This document shows positions 24,574 to 25,358 of a DNA stretch of 46,782 nt, in pieces. Where the stretch lies: assembly GCA_021208605.1 (NCBI GenBank), contig JAJOJK010000021.1, positions 1 to 46,782 on the forward strand, given 5' to 3'. The stretch's first letter is position 1, and each line of letters begins with the position of its first letter. Source of the DNA: Candidatus Woesebacteria bacterium (GTDB lineage: Bacteria > Patescibacteriota > Microgenomatia > UBA1400 > UBA1396). Below the pieces are notes generated by a model. The model was not told where the DNA came from, did no database searches, and saw only the letters and a list, made by a program, of their open reading frames with translations. The translations under genes and the position numbers were made by a program.

Positions 24574-24611
24574 AAAAAAACAGGGTGATTCATGGGAATC
24601 ACCCTGTTTTT
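24574..24611. terminator. Bidirectional intrinsic terminator
   Basis: AAAAAAACAGGGTGATTC-ATGG-GAATCACCCTGTTTTT. Confidence 0.9.
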
Positions 24612-24614
24612 GGT

Positions 24615-24776
24615 TTAGCGTGTAGACTGCTGTTCTGGATTCTTGTCGTTAGGAACTTCCCGGATTACAACTGGAGTAGTGTCTTCACCACGCATAGCGG
24701 CCCGATATCCCGCTACACTTCTTGGATCCGAATCATCGAAGTTCAAGACTACTTTCTTTTGTTCTTTTTTGGCCAT
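24615..24776 (-). CDS. Small hypothetical protein (53 aa), gene 1 of leader-controlled pair
   Basis: RBS gaaaggagacac then MAKKEQKKVVLNFDDSDPRSVAGYRAAMRGEDTTPVVIREVPNDKNPEQQSTR. Confidence 0.7.
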   Translation of the reverse strand: MAKKEQKKVVLNFDDSDPRSVAGYRAAMRGEDTTPVVIREVPNDKNPEQQSTR

Positions 24777-24810: not shown

Positions 24811-24891
24811 AAAAAAACCTCCTCAGTGGTGAGGAGGGTGTTTCTTGTCTGTTGTGTATGCTCTACTCTGCTACGCGACAGCGACCCTCCC
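24811..24891 (-). ncRNA. Structured RNA leader 1 (antiterminator/terminator type)
   Basis: Minus: GGAGGGT (24890-24884) ... GCGTAGCAGA (24876-24867) ... ACCCTCC (24839-24833), overlapping terminator CCTCCTCA-CCAC-TGAGGAGG-T7 (24837-24811). Confidence 0.65.
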
Positions 24892-24992
24892 GCTCTGAAG
24901 GCGGAACCAAATGGTGCTGACAATAAGATGCAGAGTATTTTGCATGTTCTTCCTATTTTATTGGGTGATGGGTATTCGTCAATGGGGAGATC

Positions 24993-25026
24993 TGCGGGGA
25001 AGAAACCTTTCGTTTGCTTCCCCGCA
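24993..25026. other. Strong hairpin downstream of small gene 2
   Basis: TGCGGGGAAG ... CTTCCCCGCA, 10-bp perfect arms with AAAC/GTTT inside; no U-tract. Confidence 0.65.
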
Positions 25027-25033
25027 AATATTA

Positions 25034-25171
25034 CTACTGGGTGGCAGGTTGTTCCTGTTCTTTATTTTTCGTATGTGGATCTTCAGATGGAATGCTATCA
25101 GCGATCATCTTGCCAATATCAAATCTATCTCCTTGTTCTGCCTTTTTTTTACGAGTTTCTTGAGCGGCCAT
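25034..25171 (-). CDS. Small hypothetical protein (45 aa), gene 2 of leader-controlled pair
   Basis: RBS aaaggagagtc; MAAQETRKKKAEQGDRFDIGKMIADSIPSEDPHTKNKEQEQPATQ*; below the ORF-track length cutoff. Confidence 0.65.
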   Translation of the reverse strand: MAAQETRKKKAEQGDRFDIGKMIADSIPSEDPHTKNKEQEQPATQ

Positions 25172-25197
25172 GACTCTCCTTTCTTTTATTTTTTGGC

Positions 25198-25271
25198 AAA
25201 AAAACCTCCTCAATGCTGAGGAGGGTGATTTCTGTGATGCGCCGTTCTGCTACGCCATCAGCAACCCTCCC
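25198..25271 (-). ncRNA. Structured RNA leader 2, paralogous to leader 1
   Basis: Minus: GGAGGGT (25270-25264), TGATG/CATCA inner stem, GCGTAGCAGA (25255-25246), ACCCTCC (25226-25220), terminator CCTCCTCA-GCAT-TGAGGAGG-T7. Confidence 0.65.
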
Positions 25272-25330
25272 TCGGTAAGAAGGAGAATGAGGCTCATGAT
25301 GTTGCTAGATGTGCGGTGCATCGTGTGTGT

Positions 25331-25358
25331 AGTGTAACGCAGATATTTATATCGTCAA
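25331..25358 (-). promoter_or_regulatory. Sigma70-type promoter for leader 2
   Basis: Minus: TTGACG-N16-TACACT. Confidence 0.6.

Follow-up and report, generated by a model that had tools for sequence, protein, structure and literature searches.

Two tandem transcription units on the minus strand, lying at 24.6-25.4 kb of the window (the whole 46,782-nucleotide stretch of a Candidatus Woesebacteria contig analysed here), each begin with a leader that we interpret as a ribosome-mediated (leader-peptide) transcription attenuator, a reading to which we give a probability of about 0.88. The theory of such attenuation has been set out previously (PMC1183508), and in those parts of its definition that sequence can test, the two leaders appear to fall within it. 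The sensor is most probably a ribosome translating a leader peptide; ribosome status was among the inputs suggested in the original prediction, and that suggestion is supported. Our verdict is of a known mechanism, in a lineage for which we encountered no earlier report and with an unusual set of targets, often orphan tiny ORFs.

Leaders A and B are 85% identical over an alignment of 90 columns, and in both a promoter occurs together with an upstream open reading frame (uORF) and its stop, all on the minus strand. Identified by consensus match only, the promoters are TTGACG-N16-TACACT in leader A (25331..25358) and TTGACG-N16-TAAAAT in leader B (24955..24982), and these are the only two promoter-like sites in a region of 900 bases; the first had been recognised previously, yet was taken for the sole promoter of the pair, which it is not. 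The uORF ATG lies 9 nt downstream of the end of the -10 box in each leader, and the 5' end of the RNA is therefore expected at the ATG or a few bases from it. As reading frames, the near-leaderless uORF A comprises 23 codons (MHRTSSNIMSLILLLTEGGLLMA and stop, 25250..25321) and uORF B 24 codons (MQNTLHLIVSTIWFRLQSGRVAVA and stop, 24871..24945). Both terminate at a TAG within GCG-TAG-CAGA, and this same TAG lies in GCGTAGCAGA, which had been described as a conserved loop in an account that missed the uORF. Leaders A and B are spaced one base differently between GGAGGGT and the stop, such that the segment is read in another frame while the stop is shared.

The remaining elements named in the original prediction, namely GGAGGGT, ACCCTCC, overlapping terminators and a Shine-Dalgarno (SD) sequence with an ORF of 45 or 53 aa, were all found where it had placed them. 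In leader A, segment 1 (ATTCTCCTTC, 25279..25288) lies inside Leu-Ile-Leu-Leu codons and pairs in the fold with segment 2 (GGAGGGT, 25264..25270), whose helix with segment 3 covaries in homologues; segment 3 (ACCCTCC, 25220..25226), the antiterminator partner of segment 2 by sequence, alignment and covariation, overlaps the 5' arm of an intrinsic terminator formed by segments 3-4 (CCTCCTCA-GCAT-TGAGGAGG-T7, 25198..25224, with arms and loop at 25224-25205). In leader B, sequence and alignment place segment 2 (GGAGGGT) at 24884..24890 and segment 3 (ACCCTCC) at 24833..24839, and the corresponding terminator, evident from sequence as in leader A, is CCTCCTCA-CCAC-TGAGGAGG-T7 (24811..24837, arms and loop at 24837-24818). 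The terminator stem is 8 bp with T7 in both copies and stands between uORF and tiny ORF. The latter, defined by SD and reading frame, are tiny ORF A (45 aa, preceded by AGGAG, 25037..25171) and tiny ORF B (53 aa, preceded by AAGGAG, 24618..24776), and a strong terminator, an inverted repeat of 16 pairs, closes the unit after tiny ORF B (24576..24611). In total, the region holds 6 terminator-like sites against 1.0 expected. Neither tiny ORF matched Pfam, and no relatives of them were detected in 88 related genomes.

The folding behaviour of the leaders depends on the uORF. Folded alone, the element from GGAGGGT to T7 is little above shuffles (z -1.0 and -2.0), whereas addition of the uORF to the folded stretch gives z -5.8 in copy A (-52.3 kcal/mol) and -3.7 in copy B. 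In the fold of copy A, ATTCTCCTTC pairs with GAGGGAGGGT. GGAGGGT may thus pair backward with the uORF (1:2) or forward with ACCCTCC (2:3), and ACCCTCC may alternatively pair with GGAGG (3:4), an arrangement by which leaders A and B fit the classic 1:2 / 2:3 / 3:4 attenuator scheme.

Switching was modelled by folding the RNA to just short of segment 4 while masking a ribosome footprint codon by codon, and for the window copies three footprint sizes were run, to which the outcome was robust. In copy A, the probability of the 2:3 helix, P(2:3), is 0.00 without a ribosome, approximately 0.98 when any of S10-L13 occupies the A site and 0 at the next codons, the small footprint extending the permissive stretch by one Leu. 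In copy B, P(2:3) is 0.01 without a ribosome, 0.71-0.98 over codons 1-14 (the limit lying at about 14/15) with a peak at IWF, and near zero from L16. In both window copies, although not in all homologues, the 1:2 leader hairpin masks segment 2 in these folds when no ribosome is present. Consequently, termination is the predicted default in the window copies, and antitermination is predicted to require a ribosome halted partway along the uORF, in copy A at SLIL(L) and in copy B anywhere up to IWFR. The mean P(2:3) of 68 leaders is 0.86 for the most favourable stall, 0.14 once the ribosome has reached the stop and 0.57 without a ribosome; in the last state the median is 0.75 and approximately half of the leaders do not favour termination, such that the default varies.

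Under the mechanism that we propose, RNA polymerase would initiate at the uORF ATG or a few bases ahead of it, and a ribosome would load onto the nearly leaderless 5' end of the RNA. A ribosome that reaches the TAG would cover segment 2, leaving segment 3 free to form the 3:4 terminator and so turning the tiny ORF off. Scarcity of a charged tRNA would stall the ribosome mid-uORF, at the sites just given, opening the leader hairpin and exposing segment 2, which could then pair with segment 3 and allow transcription to continue into the tiny ORF. If the ribosome were absent, the leader hairpin would hide segment 2 and termination would follow by default. Translation of the uORFs, the amino acids sensed and what the tiny proteins do are elements of this scheme that we infer.

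The source genome is a 1.08-Mb assembly of 21 contigs, which we place in Patescibacteria; for a window protein the nearest named relative, at 53% identity, belongs to Ca. Roizmanbacteria, and Ca. Dojkabacteria was matched as well. Searching at the DNA level recovered only the two window copies, the exact pattern of the element had zero matches in 85,462 species genomes, and BLAST of the region against phages and plasmids returned none. The pattern GCTGNNNNGCGTAGCAGA occurs in the source genome at chance level (76 matches against 71 for its reverse), from which we conclude that the sequence motif itself is not what is conserved. Early blastn matches outside the window (L003, L004) and one pattern match (L005) were discarded, being coding sequence or a simple terminator. 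From the two window copies we built a covariance model describing the 2:3 helix only (R1), which gave convincing matches in other families of the order, and a model rebuilt from those matches (R2) gave matches in 75 of the 88 genomes of the order (E <= 0.02) and in 42 of 240 across the phylum (E <= 5e-4). Some R2 matches (e.g. L026, L028) were rejected as ordinary gene-end terminators. No leader of this type precedes thrS in the source genome.

More than 100 matched regions were retrieved and tested for features absent from the model, namely a uORF start and a promoter. An ATG uORF that spans 14-36 codons and stops at the switch accompanies 94 of 129 matches in the order (21.3 +/- 3.2 in dinucleotide shuffles), and in 74 of 129 (3.3 +/- 2.1 when shuffled) a sigma70-like promoter also lies 4-12 nt upstream of the ATG of such a uORF. 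The same loci provide a natural control: the architecture is present at 81 of 111 matched terminators but at only 4 of 36 other terminators, and among these four at least some resemble attenuators overlooked by the model (e.g. MHKVLIVTTTTTTIPV). The homologous uORFs centre on 24 codons in length, and an SD-like 4-mer is present in only 2 of 68; as read from these sequences, near-leaderless initiation of the uORF is the rule among the leaders. Such recurrence at other loci bears on the suggestion that the window leaders are unregulated, constitutive terminators, relics of an event in which a tiny gene was duplicated in tandem together with its 5' region. While the copies are adjacent and their tiny ORFs orphan, as a relic would have it, the architecture recurs with other letters at unrelated loci, and control codons are logically matched to the genes downstream where these are thrS and prephenate dehydratase (see below), leaving this suggestion highly unlikely.

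Covariation in homologues, which the original prediction had proposed as a check using covariance models, was found in the GGAGGGT:ACCCTCC helix. Pairing of this 2:3 antiterminator helix is kept in 92% of cases; in an alignment that was itself fitted to the structure, 208 cells are double-changed against 58.6 +/- 12.2 when shuffled, and the covariation score is 0.64 against at most 0.153 for slid controls. The pairing is conserved and the letters are not, column 9 for instance being GC 49 times, AU 47, UA 7 and CG 4. The proposed terminator/antiterminator pair is confirmed, and judging from the homologues it is by covariation that an antiterminator excluding the terminator is maintained. A speculative further input, 30S availability read through the likeness of the CCUCC/GGAGG segments to anti-SD and SD sequence, is not supported, because in the same alignment those letters are swapped for other pairing letters. 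Covariation had also been claimed for the inner stem (TGTC/GACA and TGATG/CATCA) on the basis of two copies, and at this site 66 homologous leaders show weak pairing (mean z -0.74, median -0.45).

The element had further been put forward as a candidate new riboswitch class, and a new-class ligand-binding riboswitch, or a protein-binding leader, would account for its alternative helices and for the 85% of aligned columns common to both copies. It would also be in keeping with the absence of a known class, which we confirm: Rfam returned chance-level matches only at both gathering and relaxed thresholds, and the T-box (RF00230) had no match in 20 loci tested. However, a riboswitch class is not supported, because an aptamer-like core is not conserved, what was taken for a shared loop consists of the uORF stop codon in its segment 2/segment 3 context, and the linker between that stop and segment 3 is unstructured and A-rich (55% A across homologous leaders). 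What homologues share is the pairing, the uORF and the A-rich linker rather than a fixed loop sequence, and the uORF and promoter statistics would go unexplained; we consider this reading very improbable.

Genes downstream of the leaders in relatives provide positive controls for the attenuator interpretation. Leaders with runs of Thr precede thrS at three loci (L100, L112 and L116, including MLHEISRTTTTTTIPVGE at L100 and MMKFVMAATATTTTIPG at L112), among them a run of Thr6; a leader with a Phe run, MLNKNQNYQTFSPFYFFFFFIKRRFGSVV, is separated by a tiny ORF from a prephenate dehydratase gene farther downstream (L109/L023); and MKSLNKKQINWWQNLIVEEGF, with WW, precedes trpS (L081). By their sequences, these leaders look unmistakably like amino-acid attenuators. 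In relatives, control codons correspond to the metabolic role of the downstream gene for thrS and prephenate dehydratase; the genes in the window are orphan tiny ORFs. Further targets include low-molecular-weight (LMW) phosphatases (Pfam LMWPc), M20 peptidases, metK and hisC-like aminotransferases, and the next ORF downstream, as chosen automatically, is of 100 aa or fewer in 43 of the 70 leaders with a promoter, a uORF and a listed downstream ORF.

Several observations on these targets deserve separate mention. An LMW phosphatase / arsenate-reductase-like gene follows an attenuator at L015, L024, L031 and L062, in four genomes of two genera and with differing leader peptides. A protein of approximately 55-60 aa, with the pattern PYS..(A)L..LA..L..H..(I/L)W.(D/N)P.T....K, recurs behind attenuators (L021, L032, L035, L052, L054, L067, L085, L090, L112, L121); two examples tested had no Pfam match, and from its sequence it probably represents a family of small proteins of Patescibacteria that is yet to be described. 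A His-rich NHHN leader (L064) stands before a histidine ammonia-lyase-like gene and an HHHH leader (L104) before an epimerase-like gene, a logic opposite to that of biosynthesis attenuators. At aminoacyl-tRNA synthetase loci (L118, L119, L126, L055, L086, L107), lysS and hisS genes have an upstream R2 match with no clear ATG uORF and no T-box; these could be attenuators with GTG or TTG starts, or of another type. Farther out in the phylum, leaders lie directly before single tRNA genes (tRNA-Met CAT at L135, 1501-1670, and tRNA-Val GAC at L153), and leader-peptide attenuation of a tRNA gene would be unusual.

To assess control codons, we took from each of 67 leaders the nine codons that surround its switch point (603 in total). 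Within this control window Trp makes up 3.2% of codons against 0.6% when shuffled (z +8.5), Phe is enriched (z +5.8), Pro is depleted (z -5.2) and Glu is absent from all 603 codons, while residue runs of at least three occur in 15 leaders against 3.3 +/- 1.8 expected. The composition of whole peptides departs little from shuffles and is not significant for aromatic sensing; confinement of the signal to the control window is the behaviour expected of control codons. In masked folds of leaders from the source genome, antitermination is permitted up to or near the Trp codon in those with IWF (L049/L237) and HHHFWF (L238), and in a leader with FAWN (L240) the Trp lies just beyond the switch. Pro in the uORFs of the order (68 leaders) is at 0.36 of expectation, for which avoidance of EF-P-dependent pauses is one possible reason. 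Our best guess is that copy A senses Leu/Ile, with the caveat that its Leu codons sit in the strand pairing with GGGAGGG, such that some of the Leu run could owe its presence to the need to pair. Copy B may sense Trp/Phe or general starvation, its amino-acid specificity being ambiguous since antitermination is allowed from nearly any early codon.

A rival reading is that of a general sensor of translation stress, in which any slow or drug-stalled ribosome on the uORF rather than the shortage of one tRNA brings about antitermination, as in the toiL/topAI or bmrB leaders. Antitermination in copy B across codons 1-14/15 would be expected of such a sensor, as would the mixed residues of many leaders ahead of tiny ORFs, and there is a precedent in toiL, which senses five classes of antibiotic (PMC12121999). 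However, copy A is sharply permissive only around its SLIL(L) codons; the Trp/Phe enrichment, Pro/Glu depletion and residue runs of the control window suggest codon-specific sensing; and aminoacyl-tRNA synthetases and amino-acid enzymes are among the downstream genes of relatives. We therefore regard stress sensing as possible, although we would wager against it. Improbable, by comparison, is that the uORF product acts through its sequence, as an arrest peptide or as a small protein with a function of its own, in the manner of TnaC, SecM or ErmCL. Peptides resembling one another between genomes (e.g. the AFIVAILRK and YTINFKHLLVW groups) and a recurring G..V.VA end before the stop may hint at this, but the recurrent C-terminal residues overlap segment 2, and nucleotides are conserved as much as amino acids: among 12 pairs of leaders (the window peptides having no close relatives) pN/pS is 0.7-1.3 in most and ranges from 0.44 to 2.5, and values near 1 indicate that function does not reside in the peptide as such.

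Attenuation by a translating ribosome, the interpretation that we favour, allies these leaders with the trp, his, thr, leu and pheA attenuators of E. coli, which likewise combine a control-codon uORF, 1:2/2:3/3:4 segments, an intrinsic terminator and stall-driven antitermination. They differ in belonging to Patescibacteria, in an almost leaderless uORF, in targeting an orphan tiny ORF in the window and in many relatives, and in control codons that are mixed and tipped with Trp/Phe, where the classic leaders repeat a single residue. A leaderless leader peptide, with the 5' end of the attenuator RNA at the uORF ATG, is also found in trpL of Sinorhizobium meliloti, which is however a Trp-specific, 14-aa leader of trpE(G) in an alphaproteobacterium (PMC7298713). 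Translation of a uORF likewise governs the downstream gene in E. coli toiL/topAI (PMC12121999), B. subtilis bmrB (PMC4191407) and S. meliloti DUF1127, where the downstream product is also a small basic protein (PMC12218461); topAI, however, involves translation repression and Rho, and Rho is proposed for DUF1127, whereas the window leaders have an intrinsic terminator and antiterminator. There is thus precedent for uORFs that govern small or non-biosynthetic genes under translation stress (PMC12121999, PMC12218461). T-box riboswitches resemble these leaders in sensing tRNA charging, preceding aminoacyl-tRNA synthetase genes and switching between antiterminator and terminator, but bind tRNA directly and need no uORF.

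Patescibacteria have very small genomes and rely on other cells for a large part of their nutrition, and to our knowledge their gene regulation is almost unstudied. We found no report of leader-peptide attenuation in the phylum in the largely open-access literature searched. A tentative extension, for which we would offer slightly less than even odds, is that of a phylum-wide starvation regulon, in which each genome would use many near-leaderless attenuators, tipped with codons for Trp, Phe, His or Leu, to induce orphan tiny-protein families, LMW phosphatases, peptidases and even tRNA genes when charged tRNA is short. The leaders may offer a simple rule by which control codons in genomes of uncultured cells could be read for the amino acids monitored and the tiny genes induced on their shortage, and they draw attention to many uORFs and tiny ORFs that could escape annotation.

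Elsewhere in the window, the left end of the contig (119-8736) has a GC content of approximately 40% against 44-53% in the remainder, and carries LysR, thiolase, PhaB-like and malic-enzyme-like genes that are unusual for such a genome, which may reflect either a recent transfer or a chimeric or contaminant contig end.
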